Source: an uncultured Bifidobacterium sp. (GTDB lineage: Bacteria; Actinomycetota; Actinomycetes; Actinomycetales; Bifidobacteriaceae). Taken from it: a DNA stretch of 64,000 nucleotides. Made by a program: the position numbers and the translations under genes. The DNA is taken from assembly GCF_945269915.1 (NCBI RefSeq), contig NZ_CALYOY010000006.1, positions 1 through 64,000 on the forward strand. Reading direction: 5' to 3'. The stretch's first letter is position 1. Each line of letters begins with the position of its first letter. Positions 3,953 to 32,532 of this stretch are shown here, in pieces. The notes under the pieces are model-generated. The model ran no database searches and was not told where the DNA came from. It worked only from the letters and a program-made list of their open reading frames with translations.

Positions 3953-5494
3953 TCACTCCGCTGAGGAGGCTGCCTTGGAGGCGGCACGGGCGCTCTTGGC
4001 GGCGGCACGAGCCTCTTCCTGGGCCTTCTTCTCCTCGGCCTTGACCTCATCGATGAAGGCGGCGTGCCTGGTCGCAGGCATCCAACCGGTGTTGACCACC
4101 TTGACCTGCCAGATCCAGGCCAGGGCGAAGATCACGATGGCCAGGAGGACCAGCATCACTGCGCCTGCAGGAATACCGAGCTGGGCGAGTTTGCCCACCA
4201 CGGTGCCGTACCAGGCGAAGTCCGCGTCCCCGAAGGTCGCATTGGAGAGGCCGAAGCTGCCCAGGACGGTCATCAGGATGGCCGGAAGGAAAGTGATCAG
4301 CAGGCCGTTGATGAAGCCGCCGACGATGGCTCCCAGACGACCACCGGTCGCGTTGCCGAAGACGCCGGCACCGCCACCATCGAAGAAGTGGGGAACCATG
4401 CCGGGGAGGATCAGGGCCAGACCCCAAACCGGTCCAAGCCAGACGGCGATGATGACCAGAGCGACCAGGCCACCGGCGAAGGATGCCAGGAAGCCGATCA
4501 GGGAGGCGTTGGCGCCATAGGGGAAGACAATCGGGATATCCAGGGCGGGGCGGGCACCCGGAACCACCCTGTTGGCGATGCCCTGGAAGGCCGGCACCAA
4601 CTCACCCAGGATGATACGCACGCCGTAGAGGATGATGCTGACGCCGATACCGAACTGCAGGGCCTGCGCGAAGGCAGCCATGAAGAAGGCTCCCCAGTTG
4701 GCCGGATGCGAGGGGAAGATGGCAAAGGCGGTCTTGGCGGGAACCACGATCGCGGCCCAGACGGCGAAGACAAGGTAGAGGACGACCATGAGCAGGGTGG
4801 TGGAGACCATGGAGTCGCGCAGGAAGCTCAGCCCCTTGGGGAAGTCGATGTCCTCGGTGGAACGGGACTTCTTGCCCACTGCACTGCCGACGGCACCAGA
4901 GACGATGTAGCCCAGGGTGTTGAAGTGGCCGATGGAGAGCTTGTCGCTACCGGTCACTCTGTTCATATAGGGCTGGGCGAAGGCGGGCATGGCCACCATG
5001 ATCACGCCCATGAGGAGGGCACCGATCAGGATGATCAGCCAGGTGTTGCCCTTGCCGAAGCCGATCGAGAGGACCAGGGCCAGGAGGGTCGACATGAAGA
5101 CCATGTGGTGGCCGGTCAGGAAGACGTATTTCAGGGGGGTGAACCGCGCCAGAATCAGCATCACGATGAAGCTGAGCACGATGATGTAGGCCGAGGCTGC
5201 GCCGAACTGGCTGGAGGCCTGGGCCACGATGACCTCGTTTGTAGGCACCACACCCTGGGCTCCGGTGGCTTTGAAGACCAGCTTGCCGAATGGGTCCAAG
5301 GCGTTGGTGACCACGGTCGCGCCTGCACCCAGAATCAGATAGCCCATGGCCGCCTTGAGGGCGCCGGAGATGACCTGACCAGCGCTGCGCTTGAGGGCGA
5401 TCAGACCAATGGCCGCCACAATACCGATCAGGTAGGCCGGCACATTGAGAATCTCCTGGCTGATGAAATTCAGCACCGCTAGGAAGACGTTCAT
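3953..5494 (-). CDS. ulaA: PTS ascorbate-type transporter EIIC
   Basis: This 513-aa polytopic membrane protein is the substrate channel of a phosphotransferase system of the ascorbate-galactitol superfamily. The N-terminus (NFISQEILNVPAYLIGIVAA) matches the UlaA/SgaT pattern, and about ten hydrophobic segments follow. The C-terminal 40 residues are charged and alanine-rich (AEEKKAQEEARAAAKSARAA), probably cytoplasmic. The start is supported by AGAAGGACAG before the ATG. It is the last gene of the run ptsI, EIIA, EIIB, EIIC on the reverse strand. L-ascorbate is the family's best known substrate, but a related sugar acid is possible. Confidence 0.9.
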   Translation of the reverse strand: MNVFLAVLNFISQEILNVPAYLIGIVAAIGLIALKRSAGQVISGALKAAMGYLILGAGATVVTNALDPFGKLVFKATGAQGVVPTNEVIVAQASSQFGAASAYIIVLSFIVMLILARFTPLKYVFLTGHHMVFMSTLLALVLSIGFGKGNTWLIILIGALLMGVIMVAMPAFAQPYMNRVTGSDKLSIGHFNTLGYIVSGAVGSAVGKKSRSTEDIDFPKGLSFLRDSMVSTTLLMVVLYLVFAVWAAIVVPAKTAFAIFPSHPANWGAFFMAAFAQALQFGIGVSIILYGVRIILGELVPAFQGIANRVVPGARPALDIPIVFPYGANASLIGFLASFAGGLVALVIIAVWLGPVWGLALILPGMVPHFFDGGGAGVFGNATGGRLGAIVGGFINGLLITFLPAILMTVLGSFGLSNATFGDADFAWYGTVVGKLAQLGIPAGAVMLVLLAIVIFALAWIWQVKVVNTGWMPATRHAAFIDEVKAEEKKAQEEARAAAKSARAASKAASSAE

Positions 5495-5608
5495 TTCTGT
5501 CCTTCTTCTCTTGTCGTATTGACCGAACGAATCAGTGGACCGCTCCCACCGGGTTCATGAAACCCCGGCCAGGAACACCCACGGAAACATGGAAACAGCG
5601 GCCGGGAA

Positions 5609-5881
5609 TCAATCGGCGTACCGCTCCAGAATGCTTTTGATCTCATCCGTATCCATGAAATTCTCAACGGTTTCAACAGGGGTGGTGGTCCCCTCGAGCT
5701 CAGGTGCCAGCTGGGGCGAGGTGAGCACCAGATCGTTCATGTTGGCAGTGCCCTTGGCGCTTCCCGCATCGGAGGTGGTCACGTTCACGTCCATGCCCAG
5801 GTCCGATGCCACCTGCTCGACGTTGACCTTCAGCAGGACCGAAGTTCCAATCCCGTTTCCGCACACGCAGAGGATATCCAT
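5609..5881 (-). CDS. ulaB: PTS ascorbate-type EIIB
   Basis: A 90-aa cytoplasmic phosphocarrier that passes phosphate from EIIA to the substrate during transport. The phosphorylation loop CVCGNGIGTS lies at the N-terminus, and the phospho-accepting cysteine should be the one in CGNG (residue 7). I start at MDILCVCGNG because GAAGGAGC sits five bases before that ATG. An ATG five codons upstream is in frame but lacks a ribosome site. It lies between the EIIA and EIIC genes on the same strand. Confidence 0.9.
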   Translation of the reverse strand: MDILCVCGNGIGTSVLLKVNVEQVASDLGMDVNVTTSDAGSAKGTANMNDLVLTSPQLAPELEGTTTPVETVENFMDTDEIKSILERYAD

Positions 5882-5996
5882 AAGTTGCTCCTTCATTTGA
5901 TTGAGTACTGCTTTTGCTTCTTGATTCTTGCTTGTTACTGGGTTCTTGCTTGATGGTTCACGTTGGCGTTCGGACGGACACGACCCGGGGCCGACT

Positions 5997-6443
5997 TCAG
6001 GATTCCAGGATGGAACGGATCTGTTCAGGGGTCTGGGCCTGGGCCAGTTCCGCCGTCTTCTCCTTATTGGTCAGGGCACCGGCAATGGCCGACATGACCT
6101 GCAGGTGCTCCTGCTCGTCCCGACCGGCCAGACCGATGACCAGGCTGACGGGGTCGTTGGCCTTGTTGCCGAACTCGACCGGGGTGGACAGCCTGACCCA
6201 GCTCAGTCCGGTTCCCAGGACGGCGTCACCGGGGCGGGAATGGGCCAGCGCCAGACCGGGGGCGATAACGATGTAGGGCCCCATCTTCTCCACGGTCTCA
6301 ATCATCTGATCCGTATAGGCATCGGTGGTGAACCCCGAAGCCACCAGACGATCACCTGCCTTGCGGATGGCATCGCGCCAATCCGAGGCAGGCACGTCCA
6401 GAGCAAAGGACGAATCAGGAAGGAAGGCTTTGAAATCAGGCAT
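5997..6443 (-). CDS. ulaC: PTS EIIA (mannitol/fructose/ascorbate type)
   Basis: A 148-aa cytoplasmic phosphocarrier that accepts phosphate from HPr and donates it to EIIB. The active histidine is His68 in the motif APGLALAHSRP, which fits the PTS EIIA-2 family. AAGGAGCAGCA precedes the ATG. It lies 45 bases downstream of ptsI on the same strand and upstream of EIIB, so all four genes can share one transcript. The family also serves fructose and mannitol systems; the neighbouring EIIC and EIIB set the assignment to the ascorbate type. Confidence 0.88.
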   Translation of the reverse strand: MPDFKAFLPDSSFALDVPASDWRDAIRKAGDRLVASGFTTDAYTDQMIETVEKMGPYIVIAPGLALAHSRPGDAVLGTGLSWVRLSTPVEFGNKANDPVSLVIGLAGRDEQEHLQVMSAIAGALTNKEKTAELAQAQTPEQIRSILES

Positions 6444-6488
6444 TGCTGCTCCTTTTCCGGGGTTGGTTGAATCTGGACGTATCGGCCT

Positions 6489-8141
6489 TCACTCCCAGCC
6501 GCGCGGATGGTAGAACTCACCATCCAGGGCCCTGGCGGCCTCTTTCTTGGCCTCATCCAGGGTGTACTTGGTGAGCTCGGCCCGAACATCGTCCAGGGCG
6601 ACGGGGGTCATCGACAGGCTGGTGACGCCGATGCCGGCCAGGACCACGGCCAACTGCGGATCGGCTGCCGCCTCGCCACACACACCCACCGGCATATCGT
6701 TGGCCTGGCCGGCATCCGCAATCATCTTGATGGCCCGCAGAACGGCGGGGTGCCAGGGGGTCTGATAGTTGGACACGGAACCGAGGGTCCGGTCCGCGGC
6801 CAGGGTGTATTGGGTCAGATCATTGGTGCCGATGCTGACGAAATCAGCCACCTTGGCCACCTTGTCGGCCATCAGGGCGATGGAGGGAACCTCAGCCATG
6901 ACGCCCACCTTCTTCAGGCCCTTGCTCTTGCCCAGCCGGACGAAATAGTCGGCCTCATGCTCATCGGCCACCATGGGCGCCATGACCCAGAGGTCGGCAT
7001 CGGTCTGGGCGTCAGCCTGGGCCAAGGCCTCAAGCTGATCATCCAGGACCTGCTTGTGGACTTTGAGGGTGCGCAGACCACGCAGGCCCAGGGCAGGATT
7101 GGGCTCGTCGGCCTGGGTCAGAAAGGGCAGGGGCTTGTCGGCACCCGCATCCAGGAGACGGATGACCACCTTGCGTCCGGGGAAGCGTTCCAGGAGGGCC
7201 TTGTAGGCCCTGGCCTGCTCCTCCACACCGGGGGCCTGCTCATTGCCCAGGAAGAGGAACTCGGAACGGAAAAGACCCACACCTTCGGCACCGCATTCCA
7301 GCGCCGGATCGGCATCGGCGGGCTTGCCCACATTAGCCAGGAGGGGGATCTTATATCCGTCCTTGAGCTGACCGGGCTGACCGCGCAGAGCCTTGGCCTG
7401 ATCGGCCGCCTGACGGGCGCGCTCCGCGTCGGCGACCTGGCTGTCGGTGGGGTCGGCAATAACCAGACTGGAAGCGGCATCGACAATGACCTGCTGACCA
7501 TTACGCAGATCCTCGGCACCCTCGGCGCTGACCACCGCAACGATGCCGCGAGACCTGGCCAGGATGGCGGTATGACTTGTGGGGCCACCCTCACTGGTGA
7601 CGATGGCCAGGACCTTGGTCATATCCAGGCTGGACGTATCGGCCGGTGAAAGGTCGGGGGCAACCAGGACAAATGGGGTGTCGCTCTCGGGAACGCCGGG
7701 GGCGGGAACCCCGAGCAGGTCGGCGATGACACGCTGGCCCACGTCATGCAGGTCGTTGGCGCGCTCCCCCATGTAGCCGCCGATCTCCTTGAGCTTCCCC
7801 TCGAAGTCGGCGAAAGCCTCGTAAACCGAACGCTCGGCCGTCTTGCCGGCATCCAGGAAGGAACGGATCGAAGTCTTCAGGGCCGGGTCCTGGGCCATCT
7901 GGGCCAGGGCCGTCAGGATGGGAGCTGCGTCCTTGGCGCCTTCACCGGCCTGGGCCTTCCGGGCCCGCTCGAGCAGGTCCTGGTTGACCGTGTCCAAGGC
8001 CTTGCCGATCCGCTCGAATTCGGCATCGGCAGACAGCTGCTCGGACCTGGCATCGTCACCGGGCACATCCAGTCCGGCCGCCATATGAATGACCGGACCG
8101 ACAGCGATGCCGCGGCCGATACCCACACCCTGGATTTCCAT
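6489..8141 (-). CDS. ptsI: PTS enzyme I (phosphoenolpyruvate-protein phosphotransferase)
   Basis: This 550-aa cytosolic protein takes phosphate from phosphoenolpyruvate and passes it to HPr, energising all PTS transporters. The phosphohistidine is His190 in SEGGPTSHTAILARS, and the C-terminal PEP-binding domain carries GVGLFRSEFLF and the late motif VGVCGEAAADP. Length is close to the usual 570. AAGGAGTGCAG precedes the ATG. Unusually for a general PTS gene, it heads an operon with a substrate-specific EIIA-EIIB-EIIC set, while ptsH lies divergently across a 235-base region. This suggests the Ula-type system is the main or only PTS of the cell (inference). Confidence 0.95.
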   Translation of the reverse strand: MEIQGVGIGRGIAVGPVIHMAAGLDVPGDDARSEQLSADAEFERIGKALDTVNQDLLERARKAQAGEGAKDAAPILTALAQMAQDPALKTSIRSFLDAGKTAERSVYEAFADFEGKLKEIGGYMGERANDLHDVGQRVIADLLGVPAPGVPESDTPFVLVAPDLSPADTSSLDMTKVLAIVTSEGGPTSHTAILARSRGIVAVVSAEGAEDLRNGQQVIVDAASSLVIADPTDSQVADAERARQAADQAKALRGQPGQLKDGYKIPLLANVGKPADADPALECGAEGVGLFRSEFLFLGNEQAPGVEEQARAYKALLERFPGRKVVIRLLDAGADKPLPFLTQADEPNPALGLRGLRTLKVHKQVLDDQLEALAQADAQTDADLWVMAPMVADEHEADYFVRLGKSKGLKKVGVMAEVPSIALMADKVAKVADFVSIGTNDLTQYTLAADRTLGSVSNYQTPWHPAVLRAIKMIADAGQANDMPVGVCGEAAADPQLAVVLAGIGVTSLSMTPVALDDVRAELTKYTLDEAKKEAARALDGEFYHPRGWE

Positions 8142-8206
8142 ACTGCACTCCTTAGTGCCTGATCAGATCATTCGGCCAAGCCGGGGACCGACGTGACTGA
8201 AGGCGA

Positions 8207-8222
8207 TTGAAACGTCTTTCAA
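8207..8222. promoter_or_regulatory. Candidate LacI-type operator for ptsI
   Basis: TTGAAACGTCTTTCAA is a perfect 6-base inverted repeat around CGTC, just downstream of the predicted ptsI transcript start. Its form resembles binding sites of LacI-family repressors. The LacI gene at 8687 is the obvious candidate regulator (inference). Confidence 0.45.
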
Positions 8223-8234
8223 GTATCGCTGTTC

Positions 8235-8262
8235 AGTATACACATTTTCATTCATTTTTCAA
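8235..8262 (-). promoter_or_regulatory. Promoter of the ptsI-ula operon
   Basis: On the reverse strand TTGAAA (8257-8262) and TATACT (8235-8240) are 16 bases apart, with TGTG just before the -10. The start would fall near 8228. The inverted repeat AACGGTAATCGTT (8261-8273) overlaps the -35 end and could be a second regulator site. Confidence 0.65.
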
Positions 8263-8297
8263 CGGTAATCGTTTTCTGACCCTATCTGGGGACATGG

Positions 8298-8303
8298 TAT
8301 TAT
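8298..8303 (+). promoter_or_regulatory. Possible -10 element for ptsH
   Basis: TATTAT lies 73 bases before the ptsH start. The best -35 candidate is CTGACC at 8276-8281, 16 bases upstream, with four of six matches. The call is weak. Confidence 0.35.
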
Positions 8304-8376
8304 TTTGAGGAGCGTTTACTATCCGCTTCGGTCGGCATCGCTCGTCGACCGAAACTACCTAGGGAGCTGATTCATC

Positions 8377-8643
8377 ATGGCTACTGCACAGCGTTCCGCA
8401 CTCATCACCGACCCGGTCGGGATTCATGCCCGCCCCGCCTCGGAATTCTCCCAGGCCGCTTCCTCCAGCGGCTGCAAGGTGACCATCGCCAAGGGCGAGG
8501 GCACACCGGTCGATGCGGCCAGCATCCTCATGGTCATGAGCCTGGGCATCGCCAAGGGCGACCAGGTCACCATCACGGTCGAGGGCGACCAGGCCGAATC
8601 CGTCGCCGACGACCTGATCACGAAGCTGACCGAGGCTGAATAA
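8377..8643 (+). CDS. ptsH: Phosphocarrier protein HPr
   Basis: An 88-aa cytosolic phosphocarrier between enzyme I and the EIIA proteins. The active histidine is His17 in DPVGIHARPAS. A serine at residue 49 (DAASILMVMSLG) lies where the regulatory Ser46 of Gram-positive HPr proteins sits. GGGAGCTGATTC precedes the ATG. It is divergent from ptsI and 43 bases upstream of the LacI gene on the same strand, so the two are probably co-transcribed. Confidence 0.96.
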   Translation: MATAQRSALITDPVGIHARPASEFSQAASSSGCKVTIAKGEGTPVDAASILMVMSLGIAKGDQVTITVEGDQAESVADDLITKLTEAE

Positions 8644-8686: not shown

Positions 8687-9748
8687 ATGGCTCGCAAGGC
8701 GGACAGTCAGGTTTCCATCGCCAACGTCGCAGCCATGGCCGGAGTTTCGACCGCCACCGTATCGCGCGTCCTCTCCGGCCACCGGCGCAAGGACGATGAA
8801 ATCAGCCGCCGAGTCCATGCAGCGGCCGAAAAACTGAACTATTCAGCCAACTTCGCCGCCAGCGCCCTGCGTTCCGAACAGACCAGGACCATCGGCCTGA
8901 TCATGGCCGGGGCCAACGACGGCCTGACAGGGGCCATCCTGGATCTGGTCAGTCACTGTTTGACCGAACGGGGCCGGTACCTGATGGTGATCTCCGAATC
9001 CGACAACCGGACCTGGGAAGCAGCCATCCGATCCCTGACGGCCCGCCAAGTGGAGGGAATCCTGGTCATTCCCTCCATGGACGCGGACCCGACCGACATC
9101 CCCCCGGATCTGGGATTGCAGATACCCATCGTCCAGATCGGCGGGCACCCCTTCTCATACCACGCCTGCTGGGTGGGGATGGACCTGGCGGCCTCCATGC
9201 GGATGGTCATCACCCACCTGGCCGAGCAGAACGCACAGTCCGTGGCCTTTCTGAGCCGCGACCTGAGCACAAGCGGAGCCACCGATCTCTTCACCACCTT
9301 CTACTCCCTGACCAGCACCTTGGACATGGCGCCCGAACCAGAATGGGTCCAGTTCGGCCCCTGCAGCATGCAACGCGGGCACGATGCCGCCAAGGACATC
9401 CTCACGACGGGGAGGACACACCCCGATGCCATCGTCTGCGGTGACGACCAATTGGCCCTGGGGGCTCTGATGGCCTGCCAGGAGTTGGGCATCGATGTTC
9501 CCGACCAGGTCAAGGTGGTCAGTTTCACCGACAGCCCCACCTGCCAGGTCTGCAAACCGACACTGACCACGGTCAGACCCCCTCTGGAGGGCATCGTCCA
9601 AGAGGCGCTCCGTCTCATCGAGACCAACAACCAGACCCTTTTGCCTGCCCATATAGCCCTGGCGCCGGAGCTGGATTGCCGCGAATCGACCTGGTCGCCG
9701 CGAACGGGCAGCAGCGACATGACCGAACCGGGCACCTTTCCCTACTGA
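8687..9748 (+). CDS. LacI-family transcriptional regulator
   Basis: A 353-aa DNA-binding protein. The N-terminal helix-turn-helix reads SIANVAAMAGVSTATVSRVL, the LacI signature, followed by hinge and periplasmic-binding-protein-like domains that bind a small effector. GGAAGGAAGG lies upstream of the ATG. It follows ptsH on the same strand and faces the ptsI-ula operon, whose control region contains two inverted repeats suited to this family. It probably regulates the PTS module; effector unknown. It converges with holB across only 10 bases. Confidence 0.92.
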   Translation: MARKADSQVSIANVAAMAGVSTATVSRVLSGHRRKDDEISRRVHAAAEKLNYSANFAASALRSEQTRTIGLIMAGANDGLTGAILDLVSHCLTERGRYLMVISESDNRTWEAAIRSLTARQVEGILVIPSMDADPTDIPPDLGLQIPIVQIGGHPFSYHACWVGMDLAASMRMVITHLAEQNAQSVAFLSRDLSTSGATDLFTTFYSLTSTLDMAPEPEWVQFGPCSMQRGHDAAKDILTTGRTHPDAIVCGDDQLALGALMACQELGIDVPDQVKVVSFTDSPTCQVCKPTLTTVRPPLEGIVQEALRLIETNNQTLLPAHIALAPELDCRESTWSPRTGSSDMTEPGTFPY

Positions 9749-9758
9749 AGCGGCCGTT

Positions 9759-10919
9759 TCAAGCCAGAAGGCCGCAGAAGAGGGCTTCGAAGTCAAGCAG
9801 GGTGGAACCGTTGGCCGCCAGACGCCGACGGGTCCGGGCTATGATTTCCAGCCGTTCGATGGCACCCTGGCGGGAGAGCTGCACCGAGAGCTCGGCAATG
9901 GCCGCACGGTTCTCAAGGTTGACCAATCCGGCCGTCTCCTCGGCCTGGTTCTGGAGAACACCCACATCCCGGTAGACGCTTGAAAGGGTGGTCAGGTTCC
10001 GGTCCAGAACATCCCTGGTCAGCCTGGTCACGCGTCGGCGCACCTGGTCCTTGCCCCCGAGGGCGTGGTAGGCACCGCGGAGCTGGCGGGGAATGCGCTC
10101 ATCCGGTGAGAGTCCGTTGACGGCCCTGAAATCCTGCTCGTCCTGCTTGACCTGTTCGTCGACCGTGTTGACGGCCTGGTCCCGGGCCGCATCGACCACC
10201 CGTCCAGCCAGGACCACCGCATCCGAAGCGCGCCGGAGGTTGAGGAGACCCACCACCAGGTCATCACGGTCCGTCAGCACCTGCTCCTTGGTGGCATAGA
10301 GCCTGGCAATGCCGATATGCCCCTGGGCCAGGCGGGCCGCCTTGGCCGCCAGAGGGGGCTGCACACCGACCTGGTCGGTCAGGAAACGGGCGACCGCCGT
10401 ATTGGAGGGGATGGCCAGGTTAATGATCCTGGTCCGCGAACGGATGGTAGGCAGGACGTCCTGGGCGCTGGGGGCGCAGAGGAGCCAGATGGTGTGGGGG
10501 GCCGGCTCTTCGATCTCCTTGAGGAGGACGTTGGTGGTCCTCTCCATCATCCGGTCCACGTCCTCGATGATGATGACCCGCCAGGGCGAAGTGGCCGGCA
10601 TCTGTTCCGAGGTCATGATCAGCTCTCGGACCTCGTCAATACCGATGGTGACCTTGTTGGTGGACAGGACCGTCACATCTGGATAGGTCCCTGCCATGAC
10701 CTGCTGGGTGATACGACTGGGCCGGTCGCCAAGACCGTGGTCGGGGCTGACCAGGGAGGCCGCAAAGGCCCGGGCCAGGTTCGAGCGTCCGGACCCAGGA
10801 GGACCACAGATCAACCAGGACTGGGCTATGGAGTCACGGCTGGAACCTTGGGAGGCCACAACCTGCTTAAGCAGGGCCACCGTCGGCTCCTGGCCGACGA
10901 TGGCATCCCAGACGCTCAC
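9759..10919 (-). CDS. holB: DNA polymerase III delta' subunit
   Basis: A 386-aa clamp-loader subunit. The AAA+ core starts [15 protein letters not shown], with a degenerate P-loop GPPGSGRSN (Arg for Lys) and the region [23 protein letters not shown], which resembles DnaX but lacks a full ATPase site, as expected for delta'. No zinc-binding cysteine cluster is present between the P-loop and AGTYPDV. The start is a GTG whose GTGA overlaps the tmk stop codon, implying translational coupling. The last 150 residues are helical and taxon-specific. Confidence 0.9.
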
Positions 10920-11902
10920 CGCGCCTTCCGCAGGAACCGCGCCCTGAAGAGCCTGTGCGACCTCATGACCGCAGAAGAGGACTGGTCATCATCCTCGTCC
11001 CCACCTTCGGAATCCGCCAGATCCTCATCCTGGTCATCTTCCTCGTCGCTGTTCTCGATATCCTCCAGGTCATCATCCTCATCGGCATAGTCGGGGTCCG
11101 ACTCGTCATCCCCGTCCTGGTAGGCATCCTCGACCAGGCCGTCTGTCCCGTCATCCGAATCCGCGTCAGCATCATCCCCCTCATAGGAGGAATCCCCGGA
11201 CCCGCCATCCTGGTCGAGAGTGTCGGGTGCCCTGCCCGCCACCAGGCCGTCCAGGTCATCTTGTATCTGCCGCCAGACCTCTTCGACAGGCAGGGAGGCG
11301 TCAATGACCACAAACCGGTCGGGCTCCTTCTCGGCCAGACTCAGGAAAGCCTCGCGTACGTTCTGTTGGAAGTCGTCACCGGCTGATTCCAATCGGTCGG
11401 GCTCATGGTCCAACCGCAACTTTGACTGGGTGGGATCGGCATCCAGCAGGTAGGTCCGGTTGGGTAGAAGACCGTCGGAGGCCCAGAGGCTCAGCCGTCG
11501 GATCACATCGGTCGAGAGCTCGCGACCACCGGCCTGGTAGGCCACGGATGAATCCAGGTACCTGTCGCAGAGAACGATGTCGCCACGGTCCAGGGCCGGC
11601 CTGACCACCTGGGCCACGTGCTCGGCACGGTCGGCCGCGTAGAGGAGAGCTTCGGTGCGGGGGGCCAGGTCATCGGTGGAATCGACCACGTCCGTGCCCC
11701 CGGTCACTGCCAGGGAGGGGAAGGATGCCATGCCGTGCAGGACCAGTTCCCTGATGGCCAGACCTGCAGGTGTGCCACCCGGCTCCCTGGTTACCAGGGA
11801 CCTCAGCCCCCGTGCCTGCAGGTAATCGTGGGCCCGCTGGGTCTGGGTCGACTTGCCGGCCCCGTCAACGCCTTCGAAGGATATGAATAATCCGTCGCTC
11901 AT
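10916..11902 (-). CDS. tmk: Thymidylate kinase with long acidic C-terminal tail
   Basis: The enzyme phosphorylates dTMP to dTDP. The P-loop [11 protein letters not shown], the TREPGGTP motif and [12 protein letters not shown] show a normal thymidylate kinase core in residues 1-226. After this comes about 80 residues in which aspartate and glutamate make up roughly half, ending in a short basic stretch ([15 protein letters not shown]). Usual family length is 205-215 aa, so the 328-aa product is about 100 residues too long. The ATG overlaps the topA stop (ATGA), and the tmk stop overlaps the holB start. The tail keeps frame and is no readthrough artefact, but its function is unknown. Confidence 0.93.
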
Positions 11903-26818: not shown

Positions 26819-28180
26819 TCAGAGGCTTTCCAGATCCTTGCCCTTGGTCTCCTGGGCGAAGAGATAGACCACGGCACCGATGACCAGGCAGACACCGAAG
26901 AAGGTGAAGGCCGTGGTGACCACGCCGATGTTGATGTGCTGGGAGACATAATCCCCACCGACCAGGAGGCCCATGAAGATCGGGCCGACGATTTTTGCAG
27001 TGGCCCCGATGCCGTATCCCAGACCCAGACCGGTCGAGCGTACATCGTTGGGGAACTGCTCACCGCCGAAGGCGTTCAGGATGCCGAATACGCCATCGGC
27101 GAAGGTCATGATGACCAGGACGGCGATGTAGAACTGCCAGCCCGAATTGTGAAAGAAGGCGGCGTAGAAGCAGCCGAGGGCACCGATGATGCCGAAGGAG
27201 AACATCGTCCAGCGTCGGCCGATGACATCAGCCAACCAGGCCGAACCGAACCGGCCGATGCAGTCGGCCACCGAGACGCCCATGAAGAGGTATGCCACCA
27301 TCTTGGTCGAGAATCCGAAGGCATCCTTCATCAGGGTCTGGCCCCAGGACTGAATGGCAAAGGAACCCAAAATGAAGCAGAAAGAGCCAACGGAGATGAT
27401 GATCAGTGGCTTCAGATGCCTGGAGAAGAGCAGACGGTAGCTGGCCTTCTGCTCCTGCTCGACCTTGGGCAGGTCCCCGACCTGATTGGCCGGCAGCTCC
27501 AGGGCCCAACCCAGGGCCTTGCGGGCGTCATCATCACGGCCGACGCTCTGATAGAACCTGGGGGATTCGGGCACCATGGCCAGCCAGAAGAGCAGAAGGA
27601 CCGGGATGGCGCCCAGGGCCACCAGGACGCGCCAGTTCTCGCCAATCACACTCTGGGCGACCGAACCCAGGAGGAGACCCAGGGGGATGAAGACCGAAGC
27701 CAGGCCGGAGAGCATGCCGCGCTGCTTGGAGGGCACGAACTCCTGGACATATGGGATGGAGACGATGTTGAGACCGCCTACGCCGATGCCCACGCCCACG
27801 CGCAGGATGGCCAGGAGGACCCAGGCACCGTCGGGCAGGAAGACCGACAGGGCCGTGAACACGACGAAGCAGAGCACACACCACTGGAAGGCGTGCTTAC
27901 GACCGAACCGATCGGCCAGGCGCCCCCATACGATGGAGCCCATGACCGTGCCCAGACCGGAGCAGGCCAGGATGATGCCCGCCGATACACCGGTCAGATG
28001 CCAGGCCGAGGTCAGGATGGAGACCACGAATCCGATCAGGAACATGTCGAAGAACTCGGATATGTTGCCGGCTATGGCCAGGCCGATGATGCTTTTCTGA
28101 TGCCCGGTCAGGGGGCGGGTGTCGATCTGCTCGTAAGCGGTCAGACCTCCCTGGCTTGTTCGGGCTTGTGTATCGCTCAT
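26819..28180 (-). CDS. Major facilitator superfamily transporter (sugar/organic acid porter type)
   Basis: A 453-aa inner-membrane carrier with about 12 hydrophobic helices. The loop motif GRLADRFGRKHAF after helix 2, RVGVGIGVGGLN, PESPRFY before the central loop and a terminal AQETKGKDLE are sugar porter hallmarks. The start at 28180 (MSDTQARTS) has AAAGGGA upstream. It is the last gene in the run lactonase, decarboxylase, kinase, MFS on the reverse strand, which suggests it imports the substrate of that pathway, probably a sugar acid or lactone. Confidence 0.85.
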   Translation of the reverse strand: MSDTQARTSQGGLTAYEQIDTRPLTGHQKSIIGLAIAGNISEFFDMFLIGFVVSILTSAWHLTGVSAGIILACSGLGTVMGSIVWGRLADRFGRKHAFQWCVLCFVVFTALSVFLPDGAWVLLAILRVGVGIGVGGLNIVSIPYVQEFVPSKQRGMLSGLASVFIPLGLLLGSVAQSVIGENWRVLVALGAIPVLLLFWLAMVPESPRFYQSVGRDDDARKALGWALELPANQVGDLPKVEQEQKASYRLLFSRHLKPLIIISVGSFCFILGSFAIQSWGQTLMKDAFGFSTKMVAYLFMGVSVADCIGRFGSAWLADVIGRRWTMFSFGIIGALGCFYAAFFHNSGWQFYIAVLVIMTFADGVFGILNAFGGEQFPNDVRSTGLGLGYGIGATAKIVGPIFMGLLVGGDYVSQHINIGVVTTAFTFFGVCLVIGAVVYLFAQETKGKDLESL

Positions 28181-28183
28181 ATT

Positions 28184-28197
28184 GAAATCCCTTTCAT
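28184..28197. promoter_or_regulatory. Small inverted repeat in the MFS leader
   Basis: TGAAATCCCTTTCA has 5-base arms around TCCC and covers the MFS ribosome site. It could be a regulator site or hinder translation initiation; this is pattern only. Confidence 0.2.
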
Positions 28198-28290
28198 GGA
28201 TATGTCGATAAACGGGTTTCCCAGCAGGCCGACCCGCCCTTGATTCCACCGGGGATCAGGGCAGGGCAGGCCGTGCATACACCTATGAAG

Positions 28291-28305: not shown

Positions 28306-29262
28306 TCAGCGGTTGATGTCCTCGCCCAGGGGAATGTCCAACTCGTGGGCACGGATGCGGGTCAGGTCGCCCATGTGGGTCAGGGCATATTCGGCCGCAC
28401 GCTGGCCCCAGCGCACGCCGCACTCCACATCATCGGAGAGGAACCCGTGCAGGGTGGCAGCCACGAAGGAGTCACCTGCACCCGGGCGGTCGACCACGGG
28501 GACCGTGGTGGTCGTGTACTTCTTGATCCCCTTGGCGGTACGCAAGTAGGGGCCGTCCAGATGGTTGGTGGAGACGATGTAGTCGTTGCCGAAACGCTGA
28601 TAGAGCTGCTCGCAGACCTTCTCGCCACTTCCCTCGATCCCAAAGACGCTTTTGGCGTCCTTGATGGAGCAGAAGAGGATACGGGCCTTCTCGGCGATGG
28701 GCTCCAGGACACGTCTGGCCTGCTCGCCCGTCCAGAGTTTGCTGCGGAAGTTCACGTCCAGGGCGATATCGATGCCTCGGCTGAAGGCCTGGTCGGCCGC
28801 ATAGGTAACAACCTCGGCCGTGGTATCCGTCAGGGCGGCGGTGATGCCGGTCAGGAAGACCAGGCGGGTGTCCAAGATCCTGTCCCAGTCGTATTCGTTC
28901 ACCCCGGTGGATCTGAATGGGGTGTACTCCCGGTCGTAGATCACATTGGCCGGCATCGGCGGTTCGCCCGGCTCCATGAAGTAGAGGGCGATCCGGCTGG
29001 CCGGCTTGCGGACCATGGTGCTCAGGTCCACGCCCACCGAGCGGTACTCGCTCAGCACGTACTCGCCCAGGTCACCCTCGGGCAGTGAGGAGGTCCAGAG
29101 GGTCTTGCGCTGCAACTGGGCCAGGACACCGGCCACGTTGGCCTCCGAACAGGCGGGATTCATCAGAACGGAACGCGCATTCATCAGACGCTCGCCCCTC
29201 CTGACCGTAAGTCTGATCTGACCTTCGCCAATCGTTGAAAGGTCATAGGTATGCTCTGCCAT
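28306..29262 (-). CDS. PfkB-family carbohydrate kinase (KDG-kinase-like)
   Basis: A 318-aa cytosolic sugar kinase. The N-terminal region STIGEGQIRLTV and CSEANVAGVLAQL, the middle motif LDVNFRSKLW, and the C-terminal ATP-site signature DRPGAGDSFVAATLHGFL place it in the ribokinase/PfkB family, nearest to 2-keto-3-deoxygluconate kinases by these motifs. It lies between the UlaD-like gene (314 bases upstream) and the MFS gene (125 bases downstream), so it probably phosphorylates the imported sugar acid or an intermediate. Substrate cannot be set from sequence. Confidence 0.85.
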   Translation of the reverse strand: MAEHTYDLSTIGEGQIRLTVRRGERLMNARSVLMNPACSEANVAGVLAQLQRKTLWTSSLPEGDLGEYVLSEYRSVGVDLSTMVRKPASRIALYFMEPGEPPMPANVIYDREYTPFRSTGVNEYDWDRILDTRLVFLTGITAALTDTTAEVVTYAADQAFSRGIDIALDVNFRSKLWTGEQARRVLEPIAEKARILFCSIKDAKSVFGIEGSGEKVCEQLYQRFGNDYIVSTNHLDGPYLRTAKGIKKYTTTTVPVVDRPGAGDSFVAATLHGFLSDDVECGVRWGQRAAEYALTHMGDLTRIRAHELDIPLGEDINR

Positions 29263-29576
29263 CGATATTCCTTAGTCTGTTTCACTCAGACCGTACCGGG
29301 ACTGCCATGTCCCTCTCCGGTCCACTTTCCCTGTTCGATTCGTCTTGTGCGAATCCGGTCCGGGTCGGACCACCTGCGATCGGGGTCCTCCCATTCAGTG
29401 CCTGTGCTTGGTTCGGTCATCGTCCCGACGGGGCCTGGCTGCTCCGGCAGGAGAGCGGCCCACACCGAACATCCGGCCTGGTCCCGTCTGGTCCGGAACC
29501 GGCCATCCGCAGGGTGCGCGTTTGCTCCTGTGCAAGGGGCATCACCACCACGGACGACCGGAATCCCATGGGGTCG
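29263..29576. other. Intergenic region between the decarboxylase and kinase genes
   Basis: No gene is visible. The only structure is a small inverted repeat near the kinase start (GTCTG with CAGAC around 29271-29287). A separate promoter for kinase-MFS may lie here, but I cannot identify one. Confidence 0.4.
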
Positions 29577-30266
29577 TCAGGACCAGACCCTGTCGATCGT
29601 ATCGCGCAATTCGGTGGCCGCCGCCAGCGGATCATCCGCCTTGACTATGCCACGACCGGAGATGACCACACCGACAGGGACACCCTTGAAGAAGGGGAGA
29701 TCCTTGGCGGTGACGCCGCCGGTGACCGTGACCTTGAAGCCCATATCATGCAGTTCGCGGATGCGCTCCTTGTCGTTCTCGCCCCAGGTCAGGGTTCCGG
29801 CCGCCTCGGCATCCCGGGAGCGGTGGACGATGACCTGGGTGGCACCAAGTTCACGCCACTGCCTGGCCTGATCGGGATCATACCGCTCGCCGAGCTCGAT
29901 CTGCACCTCGCCGTCGAACTCCTGGGCGACCTTGACGACCTGGCCCACCGTGGTCATGCTGGCCCCGGCCACGACCGAGACCCAGTTGGCCCCGGCCTCG
30001 AAGCAGGCCCTGGAGATGACGGCCCCGGCCTCGGCGATACGCACATCGGCCAGGATGGTCTTCTGAGGGTAGAGCGCTCGAATCTCGCGGACGGCTTTCA
30101 AACCCTCAGCGATGATCAGGACGGTCCCGCACTCAATTACATCAATCTTGCTGATGGCCGCGTTCAAGGGCTTCAGGGCCGAGGGCATGTCGAAGGTGTC
30201 CAAGGCAATCTGCAGCTGGGGACGTTCCAGAGCGCCCCTGGCTCCCGACCGGTTCTCCTGCGCCAT
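29577..30266 (-). CDS. ulaD: UlaD-like 3-keto-L-gulonate-6-phosphate decarboxylase with altered active-site motif
   Basis: A 229-aa TIM-barrel protein of the OMP decarboxylase suprafamily. LQIALDTFDMPSA, IDVIECGTVLI, WVSVVAGAS, VIVHRSRDAEAAG and GFKVTVTGGVTAKDLPFFKG align closely with remembered E. coli UlaD with a constant offset of 12. By that alignment Asp23, Glu45, Asp74, His148 and Arg151 match catalytic positions 11, 33, 62, 136 and 139. The suprafamily signature DxKxxD reads DVRIAE here, so Lys64 becomes Arg76 and Asp67 becomes Glu79. AAGGAGG precedes the ATG, and it starts 5 bases after the lactonase stop. It may be a functional variant with changed substrate or reaction. Confidence 0.82.
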   Translation of the reverse strand: MAQENRSGARGALERPQLQIALDTFDMPSALKPLNAAISKIDVIECGTVLIIAEGLKAVREIRALYPQKTILADVRIAEAGAVISRACFEAGANWVSVVAGASMTTVGQVVKVAQEFDGEVQIELGERYDPDQARQWRELGATQVIVHRSRDAEAAGTLTWGENDKERIRELHDMGFKVTVTGGVTAKDLPFFKGVPVGVVISGRGIVKADDPLAAATELRDTIDRVWS

Positions 30267-30271
30267 GGCGA

Positions 30272-31261
30272 TCAGGCCTCCTTACGGAAGGCGAAGAAGG
30301 TGCGTGCGTTGCCGATCAGCAGCTTGTCGACATAGGCGGGATCGAAGCCCTCGGCAATCATGCGGGGACCATCCACGGCGGGGTTGTAGTCGACACCGCT
30401 GACCGAACCGTAGACCTTCTGGTAGGAGCGCTTTCCGGAATCGGTGCCCAGAAGGATCCGGTCCTCGAAACCATCTTCCTTGAAAGCCTTGAGCTCCATG
30501 ATCCTGTTGGAATCGGGCTGGTATTTGATGCGGTTGGTACCGTCGATCTCCAGATAGACGCCCAGGTCAAGGATCTGCTCCAGATAGTAAACGTCTGCAT
30601 TGCGCTGGATATGGCCGATGGCGATCTGGTTGGCGGGGACACCCAGATCGATCAGGGTCTGGGCCTGCTCCAGGCCGCAGGTGCCATAAGTGGTGTGGGT
30701 GTTGATCGGGGCACCGGTCTCGATGGCGGCCTTGGCCGCGGCCTCCATGCACTTGTGTTCGAAGGGGGTGATCTTGCCATAGGCGGTGCCGATCTTGATG
30801 ACGCCGGCCTTGTAGGGGCTGCGGTCCACCAGGGGACCGGTGTAGTCATTACGGTCGATGCCCTCGGTGATGTCGGCGATGACCAGGTCAGCGATCTGGT
30901 CCACACTGTAGCGGTTGATCCAGTGGGACTGGGTCTCCAGGTAGACATGCTCGCGATGGAAACCGGTGGCGCCGATCACCTGCAAGTGGTCGACGGAACG
31001 GGCCACTTCGACCAGCTTCTCGATGTCACGTCCGCAGTTGATCGGGCACATGTCGACCACGGTGCCGCCTTGGTCGCTCCAGTTCAGGGAGGCCTTGGCG
31101 AAGTAGCCCGCCTCGGTCTCGGCCTTCTCCACCGAATCCAGCTGATGGTCCCCATCCAGGTAGACCTCTCCCGCCCCGACGCGAATCAGGTGGTCATGGC
31201 TGTTGACGACACCCAGGGTCTTGGGGTCCACATCTCCGAGAATTGTCCTTGCAAATGCCAT
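30272..31261 (-). CDS. Phosphotriesterase-family lactonase
   Basis: A 329-aa metal-dependent hydrolase of the amidohydrolase superfamily. Expected metal ligands are visible: His22 and His24 in NSHDHL, the bridging lysine in GVIKIGTAYGK, histidines in INTHTTYGT and IGHIQRN, and the aspartate in LLGTDSGKRS. Members of this group in mollicutes and streptococci hydrolyse phosphorylated pentono-lactones and lie beside Ula-type PTS genes (from memory). Here it precedes the UlaD-like decarboxylase by 5 bases, so it probably opens the lactone before decarboxylation, replacing UlaG. GGAGTTCG precedes the ATG at 31261. Confidence 0.82.
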   Translation of the reverse strand: MAFARTILGDVDPKTLGVVNSHDHLIRVGAGEVYLDGDHQLDSVEKAETEAGYFAKASLNWSDQGGTVVDMCPINCGRDIEKLVEVARSVDHLQVIGATGFHREHVYLETQSHWINRYSVDQIADLVIADITEGIDRNDYTGPLVDRSPYKAGVIKIGTAYGKITPFEHKCMEAAAKAAIETGAPINTHTTYGTCGLEQAQTLIDLGVPANQIAIGHIQRNADVYYLEQILDLGVYLEIDGTNRIKYQPDSNRIMELKAFKEDGFEDRILLGTDSGKRSYQKVYGSVSGVDYNPAVDGPRMIAEGFDPAYVDKLLIGNARTFFAFRKEA

Positions 31262-31380
31262 TCGAACTCCTTTGTTTGCTCTGCGATTGTCATGCACCGC
31301 ATCCTGCTATCCAGTGGCATCGGTGCCTTCCCTACAAAATCAACGATAGTGACCGGTCCAGCCCAAAAGCAACCAACTAG

Positions 31381-31394
31381 ATGCACATATGATT
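31381..31394. promoter_or_regulatory. Candidate SorC operator, copy 1
   Basis: ATGCACATATGATT shares 11 of 14 bases with ATGTACATATGTTC at 31499-31512. This copy lies in the upstream part of the lactonase leader; the other overlaps the SorC start. Two near-copies in a divergent regulatory region suggest a shared regulator. Confidence 0.35.
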
Positions 31395-31471
31395 ACTGCT
31401 ATTGCTACACTACGGAAGTGTCGATAAAAAAATCGCCTAATTCTTTGCCTTTTCATTCACTTAGTTTCGTA

Positions 31472-31500
31472 TTGTTTCTCCCGTAGTCGTTTGATAAGAT
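31472..31500 (+). promoter_or_regulatory. Promoter of the SorC regulator gene (leaderless)
   Basis: TTGTTT (31472-31477) and TAAGAT (31495-31500) are 17 bases apart. The predicted start falls on the A of the ATG at 31507, and no ribosome site precedes the gene, so the mRNA is likely leaderless. Confidence 0.6.
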
Positions 31501-31512
31501 GTACATATGTTC
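31499..31512. promoter_or_regulatory. Candidate SorC operator, copy 2
   Basis: ATGTACATATGTTC overlaps the -10 element and the start codon of the SorC gene. GATGTACA also recurs 10 bases after its first copy. Occupancy would block the gene's own transcription, as in autorepression (inference). Confidence 0.35.
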
Positions 31513-32532
31513 AATGATGTACAGTTGATGACCTCCGCGCAGGCGCGTGACCGGGTCCAGCTCCTCCTGGAAATCGCCCGCATGTACTACGAGGACCACA
31601 TGCTCCAGTCCCAGATCGCAGCCAAGGTGGGATACTCGCGTCCCTCCATCTCGCGGATGCTCAAGGAGGCCGAGGACCAGGGCCTGGTCTCCGTCACCAT
31701 CAGGGACCCCCTGGAACGTTTACAGGGCCTTGAAGCAGAGCTGATACACCGGTTCAACCTTCACTATGCCAGGGTTTCGGAACCCCCGCAGGGATGCACC
31801 GGCTACGATGTGGTGCCCCGCAGCGCGGCTTCCCTCCTGGTGGAGCACACCCGACCCGACTCCCTGGTCACGGTATCCAATGGCAATGCGGTGGCCTATA
31901 CGGTCCGCGAGGTTCCGCCGCAGAACTGGGCCAAGACCAATGTGGCTCAGATGATCGGCTCCCTCTCACCCACCAACCCCATGACGGATTCACCAGAAAT
32001 CTGCCGGATGCTGGCACAACGACTGGGGGGCAGCTATACCACCCTGCCCGTGCCCATGATCCTCTCCTCCAAGTCCGTCGCCAAGGCCATGCTCAAAGAG
32101 AAGCAGATCGCCGACACACTGACCCTGGGCGGCCATGCGGACGTGGCCGTGGTAGGGGTCGGATCCGTGGAGGAGGGGCGATCCGGACACATCTTCCATG
32201 ATTATGAAGACGCCGACCTGATTCGGCAGGTCACCTCCCTCAAGGCGGTCGGGCACATCTGCGGCCACCATATCGACGCCCAGGGCAACCACATCCGCAC
32301 CAGCCTGTGCGAGCGGACCATATCTATCGATTTCGACCGGCTCAGGCGCATCCCCCTGGTCATCGGCGTGGCCTGGGGACACCAGAAAGTGCCCGGAATC
32401 CTGGCCTGCCTCAGGGCCGGACTGATTTCCGCCCTGGCCACCGACCGGGAGACCGCCGAAGGGATTCTGAGTCTGGACGACGAACAGACCACAGGCAAGG
32501 GACAGAAACGACGTGGCGCTGAATCGGGATGA
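31507..32532 (+). CDS. SorC/DeoR-family sugar-responsive regulator
   Basis: A 341-aa regulator. The N-terminal helix-turn-helix is QIAAKVGYSRPSISRMLKEA, followed by a sugar-phosphate-binding domain of the SorC type (GGHADVAVVGVGSVEEG, HICGHHIDAQGN). It is divergent from the lactonase gene across 245 bases, so it probably controls lactonase-decarboxylase-kinase-MFS in response to a phosphorylated intermediate. The start at 31507 is preferred because a good promoter predicts a transcript beginning there; ATG at 31528 is the alternative. Confidence 0.88.
   Translation: MFNDVQLMTSAQARDRVQLLLEIARMYYEDHMLQSQIAAKVGYSRPSISRMLKEAEDQGLVSVTIRDPLERLQGLEAELIHRFNLHYARVSEPPQGCTGYDVVPRSAASLLVEHTRPDSLVTVSNGNAVAYTVREVPPQNWAKTNVAQMIGSLSPTNPMTDSPEICRMLAQRLGGSYTTLPVPMILSSKSVAKAMLKEKQIADTLTLGGHADVAVVGVGSVEEGRSGHIFHDYEDADLIRQVTSLKAVGHICGHHIDAQGNHIRTSLCERTISIDFDRLRRIPLVIGVAWGHQKVPGILACLRAGLISALATDRETAEGILSLDDEQTTGKGQKRRGAESG

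Follow-up and report, generated by a model that had tools for sequence, protein, structure and literature searches.

An operon encoding a phosphotriesterase (PTE)-family lactonase, a UlaD-type decarboxylase, a PfkB-family kinase and an MFS carrier, with a SorC-type regulator transcribed divergently, lies in the window (the 64,000-nucleotide stretch of DNA analysed here). Together with UlaE and UlaF it probably constitutes a PTS-independent pathway of L-ascorbate catabolism. The source genome (1.97 Mb) belongs to the bee-gut-type Bifidobacterium asteroides/indicum group. The decarboxylase carries DxRxxE in place of the DxKxxD signature of its suprafamily, and the best reading is that the change marks a lineage and brings no new function, the protein being a variant KGPDC that would perform the usual reaction. 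That a carrier and a kinase stand in for the ascorbate PTS, which the first-pass annotation of this DNA missed, is more unusual than the motif. The elements of the locus are as follows.

26819..28249, minus strand: MFS carrier (sugar-acid/aromatic-acid symporter-like; PF07690/PF00083), proposed to take up ascorbate; likely start at an ATG near 28180
28306..29262, minus strand: PfkB-family kinase (PF00294), proposed ATP-dependent L-ascorbate 6-kinase
29263..29576: interval separating ulaD from the kinase gene; at this place most relatives have a gene for a UlaE-type 3-epimerase (and, outside Bifidobacterium, also one for a UlaF/AraD-type 4-epimerase)
29577..30266, minus strand: ulaD, encoding a UlaD/KGPDC homologue of 229 aa
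30030..30047, minus strand: motif codons GAT GTG CGT ATC GCC GAG, encoding D74-V-R76-I-A-E79
30272..31297, minus strand: PTE-family (COG1735; PF02126) lactonase, putatively acting on L-ascorbate 6-phosphate; translation probably begins at the ATG at 31261
31381..31395, minus strand: predicted second operator copy, degenerate (3 mismatches), upstream of the lactonase gene
31499..31513, minus strand: predicted palindromic operator, TGAACATATGTACAT, at the start of the regulator gene
31507..32532, plus strand: SorC/DeoR-type sugar-binding regulator (PF04198), divergent

Gene context and the proposed pathway

We tallied gene content by tblastn over 46 loci that encode a DxRxxE UlaD. The PfkB kinase is present in all 46, the SorC-type regulator in 45, UlaE in 44, the MFS carrier in 43 and UlaF in 42; the UlaF gene of many bifidobacteria comes after that of the MFS carrier. 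The lactonase is of the PTE family in 43 loci and is UlaG in three, never both and never neither. The UlaABC PTS is absent from the clusters at these 46 loci, the one UlaA-like IIC match (27%) lying at the outer end of a single flank. The three UlaG proteins are 65-68% identical to the E. coli L-ascorbate-6-P lactonase, and that of locus L116 reaches 620 bits on the equivalog model for L-ascorbate 6-phosphate lactonase, about twice the cut-off of 306. This exchange of PTE-family protein and UlaG is the strongest evidence that the former acts on ascorbate 6-phosphate as its lactonase, which would place the phosphorylation step before the opening of the ring. At one locus (L115:12723-16620) an ABC transporter (binding protein, permease and ATPase) follows the cluster, and the MFS gene is absent while the kinase is kept, which suggests a carrier swap for the same substrate.

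In the pathway that we propose, the MFS carrier would import ascorbate, which the PfkB kinase would phosphorylate at the expense of ATP, giving L-ascorbate 6-phosphate; ring opening by the PTE-family lactonase would then yield 3-keto-L-gulonate 6-phosphate, UlaD would decarboxylate this to L-xylulose 5-phosphate, and UlaE and UlaF, encoded elsewhere in the genome, would yield D-xylulose 5-phosphate, which may enter the phosphoketolase pathway. We infer every one of these substrates, and the catalytic roles of Arg76 and Glu79, from what is observed here: sequence, conservation, the single origin of the motif, gene context and the sharing of an operator.

The nearest named families of the kinase are KDG (2-keto-3-deoxygluconate) kinases, and it falls below the cut-off of each (NF041332, 195.4 bits against 440; NF040938, 86.9 against 400; NF052444, 42.3 against 400). 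The best PDB match of the lactonase is a Mycoplasma amidohydrolase (3msr/3ovg, E=5e-58), and its best NCBIfam model, the phospho-furanose lactonase NF045706, matches at 251.3 bits, below the cut-off of 630. At the phosphate-site positions of the Mycoplasma protein MS53_0025, which we take to be K217, K244, Y245, R275 and Y278, the window lactonase has R, K, Y, K and Y, so that charge and tyrosines are kept with two conservative changes.

A paralogous cluster is found in two Bifidobacteriaceae (L113:4283-11702 and L114:4689-11748), with SorC, PTE (33-34%), UlaD (38-43%), PfkB, UlaE, UlaF and MFS genes. Its UlaD has DIRIAR in the motif as well as A169 and S192, and the cluster probably represents a related pathway for another substrate.

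Such diversification, together with the distance of the window lactonase from the characterised phospho-furanose lactonase, of which it is not an equivalog, would fit a cluster acting on a lactone or sugar acid akin to L-ascorbate, such as erythorbate or some other furanolactone, and not on L-ascorbate itself, with DxRxxE as part of the change in specificity. We consider this rather unlikely, because the three clusters with UlaG so close to the E. coli enzyme have UlaD, UlaE and kinase of the same types, and because the KGPDC substrate residues E112, H136 (in Bifidobacteriaceae), R139, T169 and R192 are intact. The shifted substrate or reaction that the first-pass annotation had read from the motif is likewise not supported, as the clusters hold the rest of the L-ascorbate pathway, including a genuine UlaG in three cases. 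L-ascorbate is the substrate that we favour.

The UlaABC-type PTS and the UlaE and UlaF genes

A UlaABC-type PTS operon spans positions 3953-8643 of the window, 22 kb from the ulaD cluster, with HPr on the opposite strand.

3953-5494: PTS IIC (511 bits against the ascorbate-IIC equivalog cut-off of 380)
5609-5896: PTS IIB
5997-6443: PTS IIA
6489-8141: PTS EI

With a IIC well above its cut-off and IIA, IIB, EI and HPr adjoining, this system might be the one that supplies ascorbate 6-phosphate, the MFS carrier and PfkB kinase then serving some other purpose. Among Bifidobacteriaceae the PTS and UlaD co-occur slightly above expectation, a UlaA-type IIC being encoded in 14 of 30 UlaD-positive vs 41 of 159 UlaD-negative genomes (odds ratio 2.5, Fisher p=0.03, uncorrected for kinship). 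Nevertheless, 41 of the 55 PTS-positive Bifidobacteriaceae have no UlaD, the kinase is encoded at every DxRxxE locus, and around the PTS there is no copy of the operator, even with 3 mismatches allowed. Furthermore, at the E-value limits used, a UlaA-type IIC is absent from 41 of 69 UlaD-positive genomes, namely 16 of 30 Bifidobacteriaceae (including the closest by UlaD) and 25 of 39 other actinomycetes, indicating that the cluster is not generally dependent on the PTS. It is thus quite improbable that the PTS takes the place of carrier and kinase, which remain the preferred source of ascorbate 6-phosphate in the cluster. In the window species the PTS could also supply this compound, and both routes may be operating.

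The window locus contains neither ulaE nor ulaF. Among the 46 loci, just two lack ulaE, this one and that of B. indicum, and neither has ulaF; a tblastn search of the gap at 29263-29576 for a UlaE remnant gave chance-level matches only. A whole-genome search placed on contig 38 a gene for a UlaE homologue (39%) with one for a UlaF homologue (48%) behind it; NCBIfam confirmed both families. On this contig (L137), two closely similar UlaF-like genes (5633-6277 and 10363-11004) flank the UlaE gene.

The two loci are joined by their predicted operator. The Bifidobacterium loci have in common, in the regulator-lactonase intergenic region, the palindrome TGAACATATGTTCA, to which the SorC protein presumably binds; most of them have two copies of it, spaced about 95-120 bp apart. 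In the window genome, TGAACATATGTWCAT with at most one mismatch occurs in three places only, where about 0.04 would be expected from base composition: at 31499 in the window and at 8973 and 9127 on contig 38, both upstream of ulaE (start 9359). Since the operator is common to the window operon and to the contig 38 ulaE-ulaF genes, the pathway appears to be complete and co-regulated, though split over two loci. We give very little credence to the idea that the window copy is a decaying remnant whose pathway was broken when ulaE and ulaF were lost from the operon. The absence of these genes from the locus and the degenerate second operator copy agree with decay, but the locus retains an intact regulator and four intact structural genes, and the contig 38 genes bear two near-perfect operators.

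The DxRxxE lineage of UlaD

The first-pass annotation gave the bounds of the open reading frame at 29577-30266 exactly but named no strand; the coding strand is the minus strand, the plus-strand reading not being the protein. Its assignment of the product to the UlaD-type decarboxylases is strong and is borne out here: the protein is 49% identical to E. coli UlaD, matches PF00215 and passes NF009832 (258.6 bits; cut-off 250). It misses the UlaD equivalog NF009831 (222.7 bits; cut-off 294). "KGPDC variant" describes it better than plain membership of the family: it departs from DxKxxD and falls below the equivalog cut-off while agreeing with KGPDC in the other sequence and context tests that were run. 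Its top PDB matches are E. coli KGPDC, again 49% identical, which leaves the close DxRxxE relatives without a solved structure. The nearest relative found is that of B. indicum (95% identity), with other species of the B. asteroides group at about 90%. In Bifidobacterium callitrichos DSM 23973 (Contig01; L024:10001-10647) ulaD is frameshifted near its 5' end, which reflects either a sequencing error or a pseudogene.

The motif codons, read on the minus strand from 30047 to 30030, are as first reported, and the alignments uphold the replacement of Lys64 by Arg76 and of Asp67 by Glu79, DVRIAE standing in place of DxKxxD with D62 kept. The constant offset of 12 relative to E. coli UlaD that had been claimed holds at all residues then named (D11 to D23, E33 to E45, D62 to D74, H136 to H148 and R139 to R151), as well as for K64 to R76 and D67 to E79, but it breaks down beyond about residue 159, near which a one-residue insertion shifts it to 13 (T169 to T182). 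The positions that separate KGPDC from hexulose-phosphate synthase (HPS), namely E112, H136, R139, T169 and R192, are unchanged in the window protein, and the remaining KGPDC-specific residues are all retained.

We aligned UlaD from the related loci with E. coli UlaD and SgbH, UlaD of Enterobacterales, lactobacilli, Vibrio and Mycoplasmopsis, and HPS proteins. K64 and D67 are kept in every non-actinobacterial KGPDC row and in every HPS row, and the two characterised KGPDC rows tabulated elsewhere (PMC5980557) also keep them. R64 and E67 are found in every UlaD of the DxRxxE clade that was recovered, whether from Bifidobacteriaceae, Actinomycetaceae or other Actinomycetes, with identities as low as 48-51%; this clade-wide conservation rules out a sequencing error or a chance local accident. 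The first-pass annotation had proposed placing collected homologues in a tree with other UlaD and HPS proteins. In the maximum-likelihood phylogeny of 69 rows that we obtained, the R64 rows form a single group of 56 actinomycete sequences (support 90/98), and parsimony assigns one change to K64R, two to position 67 and one to H136K, so that R64 arises once; these counts are indicative, as the motif columns were included and some branches are long. Within the R64 group, position 67 is E in 54 of 56 rows and R in two paralogues. H136K occurs in 35 of the 56 rows in the same operon context (e.g. L028-L034, L053-L062 and L065-L082), Lys136 being present in most Actinomycetaceae and in other families and His136 being kept in Bifidobacteriaceae, including the window. 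Throughout the main R64/E67 clade E33, D62 and T169 are kept, as is R139 in all rows but one. A phylum-wide search at a strict E-value returned one genome beyond that of the window, already in our set, so the clade seems to be concentrated in few families; Firmicutes and other phyla were sampled through plasmid records only.

In the E. coli enzyme, E33 and D62 hold the Mg2+ that stabilises the enediolate; Lys64 contacts the enediolate, and the proton is delivered by waters near E112/Lys64 and near His136/Arg139. With Arg76 in place of Lys64 a positive charge would stay beside the enediolate, and Glu79 in place of Asp67 would preserve its acidic partner, so that the Arg76-Glu79 pair may keep the charge pattern of Lys64-Asp67 and Mg-dependent decarboxylation could be retained with a rewired motif. 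In the Lys136 subclade the other protonation side would be altered as well. That the DxRxxE enzyme is instead an HPS, or an otherwise re-purposed member of the suprafamily, is hardly credible: the fold family is the same and TIGR03128 does match the window protein, but at 143.9 bits it is below the cut-off of 200, residues E112, R139, T169 and R192 are KGPDC-type where the HPS rows have D, another residue, A and S, and the cluster has no hxlB.

Taken together, we lean slightly towards a broader view, namely that actinobacteria possess a PTS-free ascorbate catabolism with a previously undescribed PfkB ascorbate 6-kinase and a KGPDC lineage passing from the supposedly invariant DxKxxD to DxRxxE and on to H136K, in which the presumed proton-delivery residues gave way in succession while function was preserved. 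The open-access literature searched contained no description of an ascorbate kinase, of a DxRxxE UlaD or of the cluster, an absence that is weak evidence as most subscription papers are outside its scope. If the view is correct, vitamin C can be fermented by bacteria that have no ascorbate PTS, bee-gut bifidobacteria and many Actinomycetaceae among them, via a kinase named in no paper of that literature. The case also cautions against reading a new reaction into every change of a superfamily signature, and this lineage will escape annotation pipelines that rely on DxKxxD or on linkage to a PTS to call UlaD. The natural series K64/D67/H136, R64/E67/H136 and R64/E67/K136 is suited to testing which catalytic residues of the OMPDC suprafamily are required.

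Comparison with known systems

The window protein resembles E. coli UlaD in fold, length, the metal ligands E33/D62 and the residues E112, H136, R139, T169 and R192, and in relatives of the window ulaD has, as in E. coli, UlaE and UlaF neighbours, whereas the actinomycete clade has fixed K64 to R and D67 to E and most of its clusters have neither PTS nor UlaG. The E. coli ula regulon (UlaABCDEF-UlaG) has the same lactonase, decarboxylase, 3-epimerase and 4-epimerase steps. It differs in that here an MFS (or ABC) carrier and a PfkB kinase are found instead of the PTS UlaABC, UlaG is mostly replaced by a PTE-family lactonase, and the regulator is of the SorC type, unlike the DeoR-type UlaR of E. 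coli. In the E. coli yiaK-S system for 2,3-diketo-L-gulonate, non-PTS uptake and a separate kinase likewise feed a UlaD-type decarboxylase and epimerases, but the kinase there is the FGGY-type LyxK, preceded by the reductase YiaK, whereas here we find a PfkB kinase and a lactonase and no reductase.

The closest parallel for the lactonase comes from mycoplasmas, whose phospho-furanose lactonase (MS53_0025; PDB 3msr/3ovg) belongs to the same family and holds the UlaG position of an ascorbate operon. This enzyme was reportedly assayed on xylono- and arabinono-lactone phosphates. A phosphotriesterase gene has been proposed as the missing mycoplasma UlaG (PMC4866288), and a later paper states this substitution, citing Korczynska et al. 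2014 (PMC11092275). In Mycoplasmopsis gallopavonis we find an independent case, in which a phospho-furanose lactonase of this family replaces UlaG in an ascorbate PTS-UlaD-UlaE-UlaF operon. Mycoplasma differs from the actinomycete clusters in keeping both the ascorbate PTS and a DxKxxD UlaD.
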